Source of the DNA: Rufibacter glacialis | Lineage (GTDB): Bacteria > Bacteroidota > Bacteroidia > Cytophagales > Hymenobacteraceae | Direction: 5' to 3' | DNA length: 64,000 nt | Assembly (NCBI RefSeq): GCF_008271745.1 | Contig: NZ_VKKZ01000022.1 | Location: 1-64,000 of the forward strand | Part shown: positions 45,121 to 51,163 of the stretch, piece after piece | Layout: every line of letters starts with the position of its first letter | How positions within the stretch are numbered: the stretch's first letter is position 1 | The notes under the pieces: model-generated | Told to the model about the DNA's origin: nothing | Databases searched by the model: none | What the model saw: the letters and a program-made list of their open reading frames with translations, nothing else | Program-made: the position numbers and the translations under genes

Positions 45121-45567
45121 AGGTTTTGGTTTCTGAGAATGCTAAGGAAACGAAAGTTATGGGGTTTAGGTGTCACTGCCGGAAGAATCCTCTGGTAACG
45201 GCCCCTAATTCATCGGTTTTCTCCACTGGATTTGTCGTGGTAAAGGCGCGAAACTTACAGATACCGGTATGTGGTGGTTAAGGCGAGACCGGATGGGGCA
45301 GAATAAAAATCCCTTTGGAAACTGTTTTGGCTCTGTTTTATTAAAAATGGCTCTAAAACAAGATGGGTTAGGCAGAAAGCCTTTGGATTTAACCGAGTCA
45401 TCTGGTCCTAGAAGCAGCATGCTTGGGAAGCAGATTGGCGGAAAAATTGGAAAGGGTCTGATAGTAGTTGTGAACATGGTTTACAGGCTGTTTTTTAGAA
45501 AAATGCCTTATTCCACGAAGCCTAAATCCTCCGGTGCTGGGGTAGGAGGGCAATGGTTTTCATCTTC
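45121..45567. other. 447-bp intergenic region
   Basis: No gene is seen. A TTTTCTGAAAA-type palindrome (TGTTTTGGCTCTG...GGCTCTAAAACA, 45323-45360) and a shorter remnant near 45484-45512 are present. Confidence 0.45.
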
Positions 45568-45801
45568 TCAGACGTGTTCTCCTCTTTCCGCGCCCCATCC
45601 TGTTTTCGCTCTGATTATTTTAAACAGGAAGTAAAGGATGGCATACACCGTTCCCCATATGGCCACATCCACCAAGAAGTTAACCGTCATTATTCCTTCC
45701 TTAAATGGGTTGTAATTAAATCCGATCACTTTCTTCACCACTTTAACCACCACATAGGTTAGCAGTATTAATACCAGGTCAATGACTTTCTTATTTCTCA
45801 T
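45568..45801 (-). CDS. Small membrane protein
   Basis: The 77-residue protein starts MRNKKVIDLVLILLTYVVVK and has two hydrophobic helices (about 7-20 and 41-64). It ends in a polar tail with GWGAERGEHV. It is not recognised. It opens an AT-rich run of small minus-strand genes. Confidence 0.6.
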   Translation of the reverse strand: MRNKKVIDLVLILLTYVVVKVVKKVIGFNYNPFKEGIMTVNFLVDVAIWGTVYAILYFLFKIIRAKTGWGAERGEHV

Positions 45802-45828
45802 CTTAGGGCAGAATTTGTTTTGGAGAAC

Positions 45829-45897
45829 TACTGGTTACTCACTTTGCTATCTACGTAGAAAAGGAGTGAGATGTAGAATAATCAGGAGCAACCAGTA
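45829..45897. repeat. Imperfect inverted repeat
   Basis: TACTGGTT (45829-45836) and AACCAGTA (45890-45897) enclose an inner CTCAC/GTGAG pair. It lies between two small minus-strand genes and might be a terminator or a remnant recombination site. It does not match the attC-like repeats. Confidence 0.4.
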
Positions 45898-46033
45898 AGG
45901 TAGGCTTTAAAATATGTGATTATGGAGAATTTTTTAGCAAGCTAGTTGCTGATTGATTTCATGCTAGGTAAATGGCATTTTAGGACGTTTTAGGTCGAAG
46001 TTTGTCTATGGCTCATTCAATTAATCACCAATC

Positions 46034-46369
46034 TTAATTTTTTGGTTTGGAAGTAAACTTCTTGAAGAAGTGGTAGGCAAATAAAATGGTTATTAAGCAG
46101 TAAGAATACTTATTGATATGGTGGTGCCAACCTGCATAATTACTAGTTTTTAGTTTTCCATCCATGTAGAAAAAATTTATATAGAACAAAAGGCAGAATA
46201 ATAGAATATTGCATAACAAAGAATAGATTAAAGTTTTTTTTATGAAGTTCAGTAAATCAAAATTGCGTTTTTTGTGATAAGCAGATACGTGCGACAAAAT
46301 CGATGAATACAAGACATATTTTAAAGTCTCTGTAATCGGATAAACTAGTAAACTCAGCAGGAGGATCAT
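46034..46369 (-). CDS. Small membrane protein, hypothetical
   Basis: The 111-residue protein has three hydrophobic helices (near 2-20, 45-70 and 88-104) and a Lys-rich C-terminus. The gene is much more AT-rich than the window average, as are its flanks, which suggests recent acquisition. No family is recognised. Confidence 0.55.
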   Translation of the reverse strand: MILLLSLLVYPITETLKYVLYSSILSHVSAYHKKRNFDLLNFIKKTLIYSLLCNILLFCLLFYINFFYMDGKLKTSNYAGWHHHINKYSYCLITILFAYHFFKKFTSKPKN

Positions 46370-46648
46370 AGAATAAAAAAATTATTTTTTTTATAGTGAT
46401 GTGTTTATAAAGTATGACTAGTTACGTAGTTGTATATGTAATTGAGACAGAGGGTGAATAAATTTCAATAATTCAATTATTTTTTAACTGTAAAAGCTAA
46501 GTTTGTATATTTATAATTTGGTTTTGGATCACTGCACCAGTATCTCCCTTGGTTCTCTATTTATTTATTTCTAATTGCTTGCCTATTGAACATATAGAGC
46601 AAAGTGCCATTGATGAAAATGAAATTGTAACCGGAGGTTTATTCTTCC

Positions 46649-47236
46649 TTATTGCTGCGGCTTGTGTTTGCTGGAGGTGGCCAGGAGAGCAAGCTTTGAA
46701 AAGATATACCTGATTACTGGCCGGATGTAGCGATACAACACCAAACTGACTAAAACCAGGAAAAGGCCGAATCCAGTAGGGAGGATTGCCCCAAAAGTAA
46801 CCGTCATGGCCATCACAAATCCTAATAAGCACTCAGCCCTATAAATTGGAAAGAAGAGGGCCAACGGAAGCAGCCCTAACACCAAGTAATCCGTTATCTC
46901 TGAATACCCCAATGAAAAACAGGTAGAAATTGCAATCCCGAACAGCAGGGCACCTGCAAATCTAACAAGGGTTGGTAGAAAGTATTTTTTAGGGTCTTGG
47001 CTTCCCTCTCGGTTGTCAAAAATTCTTCTTTGGATCCGATAGGTGAGGAACCAGGCTAACAGGGGAAGTACTAACGCACCCCATCCATTTGAAATGGCCG
47101 GCAAATCCTTATTAGCCGCAAGGTGGTGACTAGGGACCCCGCCGTGGTAATGGTTCCAGGCCAAAAGTGACCAAATAGATACCGCAATAATTGCTGTAAA
47201 ATAGAGCCTTATCTTAAAGAATTCCTTTTTGGTCAT
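46649..47236 (-). CDS. Membrane protein, hypothetical
   Basis: The 195-residue protein has five or six hydrophobic helices. WGALVLPLLAWFLTYRIQRR (about 53-72) and FGLFLVLVSLVLYRYIRPV (about 156-174) are the clearest. It begins MTKKEFFKIRLYFTAI and ends in a Lys/Ser-rich tail. No motif is recognised. It is part of the minus-strand accessory run. Confidence 0.65.
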   Translation of the reverse strand: MTKKEFFKIRLYFTAIIAVSIWSLLAWNHYHGGVPSHHLAANKDLPAISNGWGALVLPLLAWFLTYRIQRRIFDNREGSQDPKKYFLPTLVRFAGALLFGIAISTCFSLGYSEITDYLVLGLLPLALFFPIYRAECLLGFVMAMTVTFGAILPTGFGLFLVLVSLVLYRYIRPVIRYIFSKLALLATSSKHKPQQ

Positions 47237-47383
47237 GGTGAAGGTTTTCTGGTTTACGCTTTACTAGGCTATCGTTTCGCCTGAGTGGGATTTAAGGAAG
47301 CAATTTCTTTTACTGAGGAATTTACATACCTCTTCCATTCTCTTAGAGGATATCCGCTTTTAAACAAAGAGTAAAAGGTAAAA

Positions 47384-47596
47384 TTAAATCACCACGCGTT
47401 GGCTTCTTCCAAATAGCAAGTATAGCAAGACTCCTAGAAAGGGAAGTAGAATTATCACCAGAACCCACACGATCTTAGTAGCCCCATCTTTAAAATTGCT
47501 TTTTAAAACATCTAATAGTGCCCAAATCCATAATAGAAAGGGGATTGCTAAGAAAAGTAATTCTCCAGGGCCTAGATTTCCAATGAACAGCATCAT
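47384..47596 (-). CDS. PLDc_N-type short membrane protein
   Basis: The 70-residue protein has two helices. The second half, KIVWVLVIILLPFLGVLLYL followed by FGR, is the PLDc_N (phospholipase D N-terminal) pattern. Stand-alone proteins of this type are common small membrane proteins of unknown role. The second helix and the FGRSQR end make the family call fairly clear. Confidence 0.75.
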   Translation of the reverse strand: MMLFIGNLGPGELLFLAIPFLLWIWALLDVLKSNFKDGATKIVWVLVIILLPFLGVLLYLLFGRSQRVVI

Positions 47597-47696
47597 GTTT
47601 GTTGAAATATTTAATGAGATAAAGGTATAAATTAAAGCAACTTAATATTTAATAATTTGCTAAGCACCATTAGATCGTGAATTTCCTATATACATG

Positions 47697-47767
47697 TGAT
47701 GGTTTAGTGTATGAAGGTGCAAGGCCTTCGGCCGAGGCTGACGTATTTATAGTGTTCCCAGTTGTTA
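47697..47767 (-). repeat. Decayed attC-like site (E)
   Basis: The core AAGGCCTTCGGCCGAGGCTG and AGTGTATGAAG stem match the other sites, but the ends (TGATGG on one side; GTTGTTA on the other) have lost the GTTRRRY/RYYYAAC form. It overlaps the stop codon of the gene before it in the array. Confidence 0.55.
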
Positions 47768-48157
47768 TTTTATAAAATTCCAATAGACATAAATTATCAA
47801 AATCAGGAGTGAGATGATGGATAGTGTATATTTCCTTTGACGATGCTTTGTTATATACCCGTTTTTCTTCATATCCCAATCACAGAGCATTTCAAGAAGC
47901 ACATGGTGAAAGTCGAACATGAAATCATGCCATTCAAAAGCTTCCCTTGCTCTTCTCTTGGCAGCTATTTCCTTTCTCTTTTGGTCATAACGGTTTAATA
48001 CTGCCACTTTTTTATTCTCGTAATCTATTGGAACATTTCTTATCAACAGTTCTTTCTTTGCCTGTTCAACGGCCAAAGGGTTCCAATTATCAGGAAAGTT
48101 TGCTATCCTAATTAAATCGTCTGTCTCTCGGGCACTTATAGGAGGTTTGAATTCCAT
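47765..48157 (-). CDS. Cassette gene 5, hypothetical
   Basis: The 130-residue protein starts MEFKPPISARETDDLIRIAN. The middle is Lys/Arg-rich (KRKEIAAKRRAREAFEWHD), and a C-terminal helix, LSIISLLILIIYVYWN, would anchor it to the membrane. The first part (RETDDLIRIANFPDNWNPLA) resembles short N-terminal segments seen in many Bacteroidota small proteins where 'ELLIRN' follows. Function is unknown. Confidence 0.7.
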   Translation of the reverse strand: MEFKPPISARETDDLIRIANFPDNWNPLAVEQAKKELLIRNVPIDYENKKVAVLNRYDQKRKEIAAKRRAREAFEWHDFMFDFHHVLLEMLCDWDMKKNGYITKHRQRKYTLSIISLLILIIYVYWNFIK

Positions 48158-48170
48158 AAATATAAATTAC

Positions 48171-48240
48171 TGCCAACGGCTAGTATAAAAACGTGCAAGG
48201 CCGTCGGTTGTAGCATGGCTCATGCTCAATGTTGTTGGTA
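48171..48240 (-). repeat. attC-like site (D)
   Basis: The site runs from TGCCAAC (48171-48177) to GTTGGTA (48234-48240). Its core is CAAGGCCGTCGGTTGTAGCAT, of which the first 14 bases are shared with the other sites. It follows cassette gene 4 on the minus strand. Confidence 0.65.
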
Positions 48241-48301
48241 GCTTCTTTTTATTAATAAGTTCAAATCTCAGGAGTTTTCTATTTCCTTGGCTTCCCCTGT
48301 T

Positions 48302-49003
48302 CTAAAGCCGACTTTGTTGTATAAACTTCCAGTCGTCGTACCCATACCTCTCATCTCCCCGAACCTTTGAGTAATATAAATCCTCTGGTCGGAACAGGGC
48401 GCTGAATACGGTGTCTTGTTTAGGGTGACTCTGGTTTACCAATGAGATACCCTTTAATTCCCTCTTGCCGATGCGATAGGGAACAAACTTGAAATCGGGG
48501 AAGTAGTCCGATATCTTCTCCTGAAGGTTAAGAAATGCCACTCCGAACTCAAGGAAGGGAGAGACGGTCAAAGCCATATTCGCAGAGAAGGCCCCATCCA
48601 AACTTTCCATCTCAGCCCTGTCCACCCCAACGATGGTGTAGTAAGGGCCAAGGAGGCTGATGTAGATATGCACTTCCTTCCTGAGCGTGTATTCTTGGAA
48701 TTTCTCAGCCTTCAAGGTGACAACCCCTGAATAACAGGGGTAAAAAGCAATCATTGTCTCTCGGAAATGCTCCTTGATCCCCTTTTTTAGGAACTTCCTA
48801 AATCCGCCCCATCTTTCCCTGTAGTTTTTCTGGATATAGAAATTGTTATATACAATCTCTTCCATCCTCTCCACCCCTGTAAAGCCGCGGACGCTTTCCT
48901 CGTCAAATCCATCAGGATTCTCAATTGGGTAGTATTCTTTTATAGTCCTCAAGACAGACCTAAAGTCATGTTTGGTAACCACCCAATTTGCTTCCTCTAG
49001 CAT
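48302..49003 (-). CDS. Cassette gene 4, hypothetical
   Basis: The 233-residue soluble protein starts MLEEANWVVTKHDFRSVLRT. It has mixed alpha/beta character, with TLRKEVHIYISLLGPYYTIV as a clear strand region. It ends DDWKFIQQSRL. No motif is recognised. The ATG at 49003 is preferred, since the longer open frame begins inside the attC-like site. Confidence 0.75.
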   Translation of the reverse strand: MLEEANWVVTKHDFRSVLRTIKEYYPIENPDGFDEESVRGFTGVERMEEIVYNNFYIQKNYRERWGGFRKFLKKGIKEHFRETMIAFYPCYSGVVTLKAEKFQEYTLRKEVHIYISLLGPYYTIVGVDRAEMESLDGAFSANMALTVSPFLEFGVAFLNLQEKISDYFPDFKFVPYRIGKRELKGISLVNQSHPKQDTVFSALFRPEDLYYSKVRGDERYGYDDWKFIQQSRL

Positions 49004-49018
49004 ATTATTTGAAGTTGC

Positions 49019-49087
49019 CGCCAACGGACTTGTGTAAAAAGTGTGCGAGGCCGTCGGCCGTAGCATGACTTATGCACTTTGTTGGGC
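49019..49087 (-). repeat. attC-like site (C)
   Basis: The ends are CGCCAAC (49019-49025) and GTTGGGC (49081-49087); on the minus strand these read GCCCAAC first and GTTGGCG last. The core is GAGGCCGTCGGCCGTAGCAT. It follows cassette gene 3. Confidence 0.7.
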
Positions 49088-49097
49088 TACGTTATTT

Positions 49098-49535
49098 TTA
49101 TTCTCCTTCATTCAAATCAAGAGACCAATTTTTGTTCTTTCTTTTTTCCTTCCAGTCCCAGTAAGTCTCATAAAAGGAATCATGCAGAAACTCTTGATGG
49201 TCGTCAAAATCCTCGGGTTTGTCAATTAACAGAACTTCGCTCCACTTGCCTGTTTCAGGGTCGGCTGTCCCGTCAAGTATATTGAAGAAATCGAAAAAGA
49301 CGTCAGCAGTGTTGCTCGCAATCACTTTCCTGAATGCTGATTTCAATACTTCATTTTCTTTTATTTGGCCCAAGGCTACTTTCTCTTCTTCTGTTAGTCC
49401 GCCGTTTGATGGGTAATTTATGAACTTGTTAGTCCTGCTATGGAAAAGATGATTAGCTGTGTGTCCTGCATATTCTTCGATAGCTTTATGAACAGAGAGC
49501 AACAATGTCTTTTTATTTTCTTCTGACAATTCCAT
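49098..49535 (-). CDS. Cassette gene 3, hypothetical
   Basis: The 145-residue acidic protein starts MELSEENKKTLLLSVHKAIE and ends KNWSLDLNEGE. TADVFFDFFNILDGTADPET is a recognisable compact block (about 77-96). It is helix-rich and has no signal or membrane segment. Function unknown; small acidic cassette proteins of this type include immunity proteins and antitoxins, but nothing here proves it. Confidence 0.75.
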   Translation of the reverse strand: MELSEENKKTLLLSVHKAIEEYAGHTANHLFHSRTNKFINYPSNGGLTEEEKVALGQIKENEVLKSAFRKVIASNTADVFFDFFNILDGTADPETGKWSEVLLIDKPEDFDDHQEFLHDSFYETYWDWKEKRKNKNWSLDLNEGE

Positions 49536-49555
49536 TTTTTATTAATTATAATGAA

Positions 49556-49622
49556 GCCCAACGATCTCGTGTAAGCGGCGGGGAGGCCGTCGGCCGTGGC
49601 TGACGTTTAGGTGTTGTTAGGT
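49556..49622 (-). repeat. attC-like site (B)
   Basis: On the minus strand the site reads ACCTAAC first (plus 49616-49622) and GTTGGGC last (plus 49556-49562). Both fit the attC consensus exactly (RYYYAAC and GTTRRRY). The core is GGCCGTCGGCCGTGGCTGAC. Confidence 0.75.
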
Positions 49623-49633
49623 CAATTGATTTT

Positions 49634-50074
49634 TCATTCATGCAATTTTCCTTGAAGCCACTCCTCATTCGTCACGTGGTTATCCCAAGTGAATTCAAAG
49701 CTTTTAAATTCAAATTCCAAGTTAATCCAGCTGTAATCAGGTAACTTCGTGTAAACCCCGCTTATTCTTATATAGTTATCGCTGGTGCTTTTGTTTTCCC
49801 CTATCGTTTCAAAATAGGCTAAGAAATCGTCAGGGATGCTGATTTCAGAGATAATCCCTTCTGTTATTTCCTCAGTATATTTCTCCGATTTTACATTTTT
49901 TAACACGATTCGGGATGTTCCAAGGATAAGCGGGCCCAAGTTCATTTCAGCAAAGTCGGCTAGCTTGGCCCAATCAAAGTCAATGACAACATCAGTTCCA
50001 ACCCTTTCCAACTTTTCAATAGAAGAATCGTGAAGTTCTAGTCTACTAAGCCCAGTGTTAAAGCTATACTTCAT
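49634..50074 (-). CDS. Cassette gene 2, hypothetical
   Basis: The 146-residue acidic protein starts MKYSFNTGLSRLELHDSSIE. It is mostly beta strand: RVGTDVVIDFDWAKLADFAE and GTSRIVLKNVKSEKYTEEI. It resembles the small beta-rich proteins often found as immunity or accessory genes in Bacteroidota arrays. The ATG at 50074 is the start; an open frame continuing to 50161 only reads through the attC-like site. Confidence 0.75.
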   Translation of the reverse strand: MKYSFNTGLSRLELHDSSIEKLERVGTDVVIDFDWAKLADFAEMNLGPLILGTSRIVLKNVKSEKYTEEITEGIISEISIPDDFLAYFETIGENKSTSDNYIRISGVYTKLPDYSWINLEFEFKSFEFTWDNHVTNEEWLQGKLHE

Positions 50075-50091
50075 TGATTTTTTCTCATTTG

Positions 50092-50158
50092 ACCTAACGT
50101 ACTTGTGTAAACGGCGGCGAGGCCGTCGGACGAAGCTGGCGTTTACACGTTGTTGGCA
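50092..50158 (-). repeat. attC-like site (A)
   Basis: On the minus strand it reads TGCCAAC first (plus 50152-50158) and GTTAGGT last (plus 50092-50098). The inner stem GTGTAAACG/CGTTTACAC is perfect, with a GC-rich GGCCGTCGGACG apex. It is the first full site of the array. Confidence 0.75.
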
Positions 50159-50169
50159 CATCGTGCTTT

Positions 50170-50694
50170 TTAATGCTTGATAATAGATTCTATTCTAAAA
50201 AGCTTCTGTCCTCTATTAAGAAGCAAATGATGATATTCTCCATTAAAGAAGTCTCTTAAAAAATCCCAGTCGCTTGCGTTCATGCTCCCGTTTCCGTTTT
50301 TATCTAGATTGTTGACTATTTCTAGGTTTCCAATTATTTCGAAGTTCTCCTGGAAACGCATAAAGTCTTTTCTCCAAATAGTCAGTCCATAAGAACCAAT
50401 GTAGTATGGTTTGACTTCAGGATGAACAGACCACATCCGTTCTAGTTCTCTATCAGAGTATTTGAAGTAATCGTCCTTTCTGTTGCCAACACCGTAAAAT
50501 CCGCCTTCGATTACTCTATGTTTTGTAGGTTTTTCCTGCTCGTCAACTGTCAGAGCGGCAAAAGTATAATTTTGAGGACTTTTATCTTTATAGGTGCTTG
50601 TACATAGGAGTACTTTATACCGCCCGTCAGCAGCTCTAAATGTTAAAAGGTCACCTTGATTTATATCCTTAATTTTCTCTTTCATTTTTAGCAT
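50170..50694 (-). CDS. Cassette gene 1, possible Imm26-like immunity protein
   Basis: The protein of about 174 residues starts MLKMKEKIKDINQGDLLTFR. The segment NQGDLLTFRAADGRYKVLLC resembles the start of the Imm26 immunity family ('GDIFxIPxxDGRYxxGxV'). The rest has FRFQENF-like aromatic stretches and a C-terminus with GQKLFRIESIIKH. ATG at 50694 or 50685 are both possible starts; a TTG at 50703 lies inside the recombination site and is rejected. The immunity call is a guess from motif shape. Confidence 0.7.
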   Translation of the reverse strand: MLKMKEKIKDINQGDLLTFRAADGRYKVLLCTSTYKDKSPQNYTFAALTVDEQEKPTKHRVIEGGFYGVGNRKDDYFKYSDRELERMWSVHPEVKPYYIGSYGLTIWRKDFMRFQENFEIIGNLEIVNNLDKNGNGSMNASDWDFLRDFFNGEYHHLLLNRGQKLFRIESIIKH

Positions 50695-50696
50695 GT

Positions 50697-50733
50697 GTGC
50701 CAACTACTGGATAAGAGTAAACCTACGCTTATC
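50697..50733 (-). other. Array head: recombination junction and inverted repeat
   Basis: GTGCCAAC (50697-50704) is the complement of the GTTGGCAC that begins cassette 1. Directly upstream of the array lies the inverted repeat GATAAG (50710-50715) and CTTATC (50728-50733) with a 12-bp spacer. In position it corresponds to an attI or other head site. No integrase gene is nearby. Confidence 0.4.
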
Positions 50734-51163
50734 TGCACTATATGTGGAGATGTGATACTTATAGTCAAACTTTAATTTGGCACTAAGAACTGCACAGGCG
50801 TCTAATATAGTGGTATTTAACTATTAGTCAACTAAAGCTGTGTTTCATATGGTACAACTAAACGTAAAAAAGGAATAGGCACTATTTTTTGGCCTACTTT
50901 TAGAAAAGACCCTGAAAACAGGTGTCCGCTTAAAGAGAGAAGGTAGAATAAATAACAGGGAGTGTGGTAATAACAGAAAACCCTACAGTGTGATGGTGCC
51001 TGCGGGCATTATGTAGGTTTGAAGAAGCGCAAAAGAACCATAGAAGTAACAGGTAGGAATGTAGTCCTGCGCTTTTACATACTTCTTTAAAAAAGTAATC
51101 CCTAAACCATTAGGGTTTAGGGATAGAAGCAAAATAAGAATAACCTTCCTATTGAAGCAAAAC
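50734..51163. other. 430-bp non-coding stretch at the array head
   Basis: No gene is supported. A TTTTCTGAAAA-type remnant (GGCCTACTTTTAGAAAAG) lies near 50890-50907, and a short CCCTAAACC/GGTTTAGGG hairpin at 51104-51122. It separates the cassettes from trxA. Confidence 0.35.

Follow-up and report, generated by a model that had tools for sequence, protein, structure and literature searches.

Cassette array in the Rufibacter glacialis chromosome

We analyzed a 64,000-nucleotide stretch of the Rufibacter glacialis genome (G000; 25 contigs, 5.32 Mb), here called the window, which comprises C21:1-64000 (contig NZ_VKKZ01000022.1). Sequence and repeat reading placed five minus-strand genes, with palindromes between them, at 47.7-50.7 kb. 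The initial annotation had described this region as an integron-like cassette array without an integrase. Its five small co-oriented genes are indeed bounded by palindromes, of which four are attC-like sites and the fifth is decayed (Table 1), and the reported RYYYAAC/GTTRRRY-type ends are real and also cassette-specific. Of the apex said to be common to the sites, B and C have an intact copy, A and D a changed one and E a variant. An attI-like site directly preceding the first cassette had been overlooked. No IntI gene occurs in the window, as none of the 11 matches to TIGR02249 in the genome falls within it. The absence of an integrase holds for the window but not for the genome, in which a tyrosine recombinase accompanied by the same attI and attC was found 501 kb away.

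Table 1. Features of the cassette array in the window (positions on C21; ORF, open reading frame; R1, covariance model of attC sites)
Feature	Position	Strand	Basis
Candidate Pc, promoter-like TTG-N19-TATATTAG, 68 bp upstream of attI core	50802..50831	-	sequence reading
attI-like site, 46 bp, directly before cassette 1; crossover G = 50704	50704..50749	-	core recurs elsewhere; motif sharp across 32 distinct contexts
Cassette 1 gene, 171 aa from ATG 50685; listed TTG ORF extends to 50703	50170..50685	-	
attC A (cassette 1 spans 50704 to 50099)	50092..50158	-	R1 and breakpoint comparison
Cassette 2 gene, 146 aa	49634..50074	-	ORF list
attC B	49556..49622	-	R1
Cassette 3 gene, 145 aa	49098..49535	-	ORF list
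attC C	49019..49087	-	R1
Cassette 4 gene, 233 aa when started at an internal ATG (ORF as listed: 254 aa, up to 49066)	48302..49003	-	
attC D	48171..48240	-	R1
Cassette 5 gene, 130 aa	47765..48157	-	homologs in G057:C25 and G032:C27
attC E, decayed, GTT end lost; last recognizable site of the array	47694..47760	-	R1 and breakpoint comparison
Insertion relative to six congeners, approximate extent	45200..51160	.	flank comparison

The covariance model R1 was built from 43 attC sites of the R. glacialis genome. On the gene strand, with filters off, sites A to E scored 69.1, 59.4, 68.1, 49.8 and 20.3 bits; the scores of A-D arise by construction, because all four are among the 43 training rows, and site E, which is not, was detected with an E-value of 2.8e-4 for 6.6 kb. 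When the best 150 of 1449 candidates in the genome were scored, at least 67 matches were obtained at E <= 0.1 and, at E <= 1e-5, at least 59 distinct places, of which 43 were training rows. The genome-wide check that the initial annotation had proposed is answered by at least 55 attC places (E <= 1e-5) located outside the window. The apex pattern AGGCCGTCGG occurred 55 times in the genome versus 29 times in the reversed control, and the surplus was located in clusters. Contigs C5 and C6 are made up of cassettes and several other contigs begin or end inside arrays, indicating that arrays broke the assembly. An Rfam search of 45-53 kb gave no attC-type match.

Cassette boundaries and attC fold

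In 38 cassettes of the genome, the run after the starting GTT was complementary to the run before the terminal AAC at 6.11 of 7 positions. With partners shuffled the figure was 2.85 and did not exceed 3.66 in 5000 rounds, in each of which the positions were chosen anew. The two ends within one attC site matched at only 2.93 of 7 positions in the same test. Such cassette-specific complementarity is the trace expected of excision and insertion at G|TT. The longest ORF pointed forward in all 38 cassettes.

The sites have inverse core/core ends and a conserved fold. Covariation was 0.168 versus 0.079 in the control (reached in 0 of 500 shuffles), and 47 double-changed cells were counted versus 16.7 after shuffling, with slid controls in agreement. 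With DNA parameters, the bottom strand folded better in 38 of the 43 sites. The arms were asymmetric, the left spacer being mostly 2 nt and the right 5-6 nt in rows readable by pattern, and an L-box, CGTTTAYMC, was common to attI and attC.

Comparison with congeners

In the genus, the 15 other genomes all retain the thioredoxin flank of the array. On its array side (approximately 3-6 kb in each of these congeners), neither an R1 match at E <= 0.1 nor an attI-like site was detected. None of the 15 congeners therefore has the array here, and gene order, which the initial annotation had suggested comparing among relatives, is not constant. In six congeners the peptidase gene that borders the array on its opposite side is the direct neighbor of thioredoxin, with the aligned parts 137-667 bp apart, and the other nine have different neighbors. 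The adjacency in these six genomes identifies approximately 6 kb as an insertion in R. glacialis. Its exact ends and a target duplication were searched for and not found.

The cassettes themselves occur in other genomes. Homologs of cassette 1 (88% identity over the whole cassette) and cassette 5 (87.6%) are both present in one 11-site array, G057:C25, and a further homolog of cassette 5 (89.5%) is present in G032:C27. Between the window and G057, homology of cassette 1 starts and stops at G|TT, the flanking 40 nt being 33% and 35% identical; the cassette is preceded by attI in the window but by attC in G057. The same G|TT pattern was observed within the R. glacialis genome for a cassette pair of 92.5% identity, located behind attI at C21 and behind attC at C6. 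In addition, G023, which belongs to another genus and is grouped with Pontibacter virosus, contains attI and a 77% homolog of cassette 1. As judged by comparison of homologs, the cassettes are shown to be units that begin at G|TT, end in an attC-like hairpin, occur in different places and are found behind either attI or attC. In the window, the array represents a recent insertion specific to the lineage, and its distal site has decayed.

A candidate integrase outside the IntI family

The recombinase mentioned above, for which we coined the label IntB, is a protein of 485 aa encoded at C21:551696-553153 on the plus strand. It is followed by the same attI and attC, and its own array runs in the direction of the gene. 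IntB scored below the NCBIfam cut-offs of IntI, XerC, XerD and archaeal XerA. Its TIGR02249 score was 190.2 bits, split over two stretches, against a cut-off of 265; its best NCBIfam score was to recomb_XerA_Arch, and its best PDB sequence match was the archaeal XerC-like 4a8e. The patch-to-box distance was 75-81 aa in 31 IntB rows, 117 in all 29 IntI rows and 80-82 in two Xer rows, and IntB therefore lacks the IntI-specific insertion. The genome contains its own XerC and XerD, and no over-cut-off IntI was found in it. The recombinase that the initial annotation had suggested looking for is hence represented by a candidate that, by the tests run, is not IntI.

In a tree with 14 Xer rows as outgroup, IntI and IntB grouped together (100/100), IntI formed one clade (100/100) and IntB was held by 72/82, which places IntB outside the Xer group. 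An origin of IntB as an offshoot of IntI was rejected on the basis of this single IntI clade. We provisionally regard IntB as sister to IntI, since tree sampling was confined to this phylum. IntI could also be nested inside IntB, given that an earlier tree with two Xer rows split IntB into several pieces and the later one supports it at 72/82 only. Two further recombinases without a confirmed IntI insertion, L199 and L200, branched beside IntI (82/63 and 92/97); L200 has one candidate attC-like site on its 3' side.

The predicted structure of IntB (pLDDT 82) contains two N-terminal beta-beta-alpha-beta-beta-alpha-beta modules. Two are present in Hymenobacteraceae and one in more distant members (alignment A2). 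For the module alone (pLDDT 86), XPB and the HARP domain of SMARCAL1 were among the first Foldseek matches, although weak (E 0.08-0.13), and in VIA-align the likeness to XPB/HARP was tied with translation factors; an XPB/HARP fold of the predicted module is a lead only.

attI-like sites and candidate promoter

The attI-like site of the window recurs at C21:553.26 kb, 3' of the integrase, and at C24:161.3 kb, where it precedes an array. Allowing up to two mismatches, the attI pattern was found at 10 places in the genome and 0 in the reversed control. Six of these extend into the right half of attI; one adjoins the integrase, and the other five have none adjacent as far as the contigs show. Conservation, assessed over 32 distinct contexts, reaches from approximately 8 bases upstream of the core to GTT, and the core comprises two inverted L-boxes approximately 8 bp apart. 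In Hymenobacteraceae, the attI motif was located 3' of the integrase gene in 16 of 17 loci read. The pattern ATAGTGCAGATAAGCGTA (up to two mismatches) was present in 65 of 120 family genomes, with up to 16 sites per genome and 0 or 1 in the reversed control of each listed genome. All 20 attI stretches that were fetched (12 from G058) continue to GTT or nearby, and 17 contain R1 matches after attI on the same strand (weak in L146 and L157). No R1 match followed attI within the 2-5 kb fetched for L144, L145, L147 and L155. A tblastn search for integrase relics at attI sites, run on 24 targets without a positive control, gave no match at E <= 0.01.

The Bacteroidota promoter consensus served as the reference for the candidate Pc. 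Of 42 distinct attI contexts, 20 had a -7 box, TA[TC]ATTNG, upstream (1.5 expected) and 13 had TTG-N18-22-TANNTTNG (0.8 expected).

Three of the six attI-like sites that extend into the right half, at contig ends (C23, C10 and C24), pass at the crossover G into a common 95-bp sequence, 98-100% identical, and a fourth copy at the end of C20 is preceded only by TTTATCCAGTAG (copies L044, L045, L046 and L051). The 95-bp sequence is probably a repeated element landing on the right half of attI; an IS110 origin was rejected, as no PF01548 match occurs in the genome. A variant attI lies 3' of the integrase in L065 and L094, with a long, nearly perfect palindrome (AGTAGGAG...CTCCTACT) instead of the usual pair of L-boxes.

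Distribution across Bacteroidota

IntB matches were detected in 66 of 120 family genomes (E <= 1e-40) and in 94 of 292 sampled genomes of the phylum (E <= 1e-60, with at most six candidates scored per genome). Over-cut-off IntI was present in 84 of 296 phylum genomes; within the class of R. glacialis or closer, the only such genome was G156, which has no IntB match. Broken or partial IntB genes occur beside or in place of intact ones in G074, G061, G055, G088, G045 and others, which suggests repeated gain and decay.

Across 43 integrase loci, R1 produced 44 matches (E <= 0.1) in 16 loci, 42 of them 3' of the integrase and on its strand. At 26 distant IntB loci, a hairpin finder detected 34 sites in 121.8 kb on the 3' side and 3 in 224.2 kb on the 5' side, and neighboring ends matched at 5.57 of 7 positions versus 2.68 (maximum 4.05; 21 pairs). 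The spacing used by the finder had been set from a first search of these same 26 loci, and 20 further loci served as a hold-out. These gave 36 sites in 85.7 kb 3' versus 3 in 98.4 kb 5', in 17 of the 20 loci, with 4 sites on the other strand of the 3' side; 19 pairs matched at 5.79 of 7 versus 2.63 (maximum 4.11). One hold-out locus, L275, is probably the same contig as L090; without it the counts were 33 sites 3' and 2 sites 5', in 16 of 19 loci. The sites at distant IntB loci resemble repeats long seen in Bacteroidota genomes. At one locus (L092:13867-17644) a second type of long hairpin, 142-149 bp, lies between cassettes after the attC-like sites.

Interpretation and alternative explanations

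Specific cassette ends, covariation, forward ORFs and G|TT breakpoints in homologous cassettes bear out the integron-like array of the initial annotation. We consider it very probable that the small cassette array at this locus belongs to an integron-like system whose integrase is not IntI and whose dispersed attI sites would be served in trans. The footprints at G|TT point to recombination between attC and attI, and we infer that IntB is the recombinase of the window cassettes. By analogy with integrons, IntB would excise cassettes as circles, probably via one folded attC strand, and would insert them at attI, where a nearby candidate promoter would read the first genes. It may act in trans on several chromosomal attI-like sites, and its N-terminal modules might, speculatively, take over hairpin recognition.

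Several observations weigh against this interpretation. The tie between IntB and the window consists of the common attI and attC, and of proximity at IntB's own locus only, and further tyrosine recombinases are encoded in the genome (TIGR02249 gives 11 match pieces; XerC and XerD are named among the recombinases). Eight of the 120 family genomes (G058, G104, G082, G098, G009, G118, G043 and G029) contain 5-16 attI-like sites and no integrase match at E <= 1e-40; the link between attI and integrase is therefore not strict. No R1 match was found in 27 of the 43 integrase loci, many of which are on contigs ending soon past the gene, and the definition of attI covers family loci. Among the 43 R1 rows, three fit weakly within their arrays, some neighboring ends mismatch (3 of 7 twice in the genome, 1 of 7 twice in hold-out loci), and the promoter form with TTTG was found in 0 of 42 attI contexts (0.3 expected).

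That the palindromes are static terminators or repeats among ordinary genes, with no mobility, is barely credible. The hairpins do lie 3' of genes, where terminators are expected; however, this explanation is contradicted by breakpoints of homologous cassettes exactly at G|TT, by the cassette-specific ends, and by the same cassettes occurring elsewhere in congeners that lack the array here. It is also quite improbable that the array is the remnant of a classical integron left or seeded by a now-lost IntI, that is, a CALIN. As an attC cluster with no nearby integrase the array fits that label, which omits attI. Its site ends obey the rule given for classical attC, RYYYAAC/GTTRRRY, in PMC12901181, and IntI is found in the phylum at the frequency noted above. 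However, the genome itself has no over-cut-off IntI, G156 is the only carrier in its class or closer, attI recurs beside IntB rather than IntI, and attC-like arrays follow IntB across the phylum. A less remote, though still unlikely, explanation keeps both the cassettes and IntB and posits a double-stranded, Xer-like substrate with no folded single strand. The insertion that IntB lacks is said to be needed for single-strand recombination (PMC4792948 and PMC8138268), and the attI core with its two inverted L-boxes is like a dif-type site. Against this stand the maintenance of the fold by paired changes, the preference for the bottom strand and the asymmetric arms.

With an integron-like system served by IntB as the preferred interpretation, we lean, with less assurance, toward a broader one: a second integron branch extending through Bacteroidota and relatives, built on IntB as a sister of IntI and lacking the insertion thought essential for single-strand recombination. 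The attI/attC mode would then be older than, or independent of, this insertion, and Hymenobacteraceae would have a distributed integron with one integrase and many chromosomal attI sites that themselves spread.

Relation to known systems

The system shares with classical integrons one tyrosine recombinase, an adjoining attI, tandem single-ORF cassettes in one direction, the R''/L''/L'/R' layout of attC, the G|TT crossover and a promoter-like box before attI. Unlike IntI, IntB has no insertion, possesses N-terminal modules and points along its array, and full-length attI-like sites are dispersed. CALINs are similar in having no integrase near the array, whereas the window array is headed by an attI-like site and has a candidate integrase that would act from elsewhere. 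IntB resembles XerC/XerD of the dif system and archaeal XerA in its catalytic core, but it falls below the cut-offs of both XerC and XerD and groups with IntI against the Xer rows. Delta-attI cassettes and attG sites of mobile integrons likewise represent att sites off the canonical place (PMC12901181); here, by contrast, approximately 47 bp of attI occur at many chromosomal places, and each of those read so far heads cassettes, within one family.

Integrons are treated as defined by IntI. In the IntegronFinder 2.0 report (PMC9024848) they are rare in Bacteroidetes, where a single complete integron is given, that of Salinibacter ruber, apart from Chlorobi and Ignavibacteriae; Bacteroidota are counted among the integron phyla in the literature. 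Our literature search, with preprints and most subscription journals outside its reach, found no description of IntB or of dispersed attI, which may be published elsewhere. Since detection depends on IntI, a large system of gene capture would have escaped notice if IntB drives the cassettes. IntB also makes it testable whether single-strand recombination of attC requires the IntI insertion, and the dispersed sites pose a new problem, namely how a 47-bp attI multiplies.

Cassette genes and neighboring sequence

Internal ATGs are the likelier starts for the genes of cassettes 2 and 4, because the listed ORFs open inside the neighboring attC. Past the decayed site E, at 45568-47596 and inside the inserted stretch, there are small minus-strand ORFs with no recognizable attC, perhaps old cassettes. 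The cassette 1 protein matched no Pfam family. The search for a defense role covered 22 cassette proteins, namely the 5 from the window and 17 of the 34 others belonging to the set of 38 cassettes, and gave one weak PADLOC match, to Cmr5 (E 0.0094). Pfam searches assigned a few of the cassette proteins to GNAT, PNPOx and DUF families.

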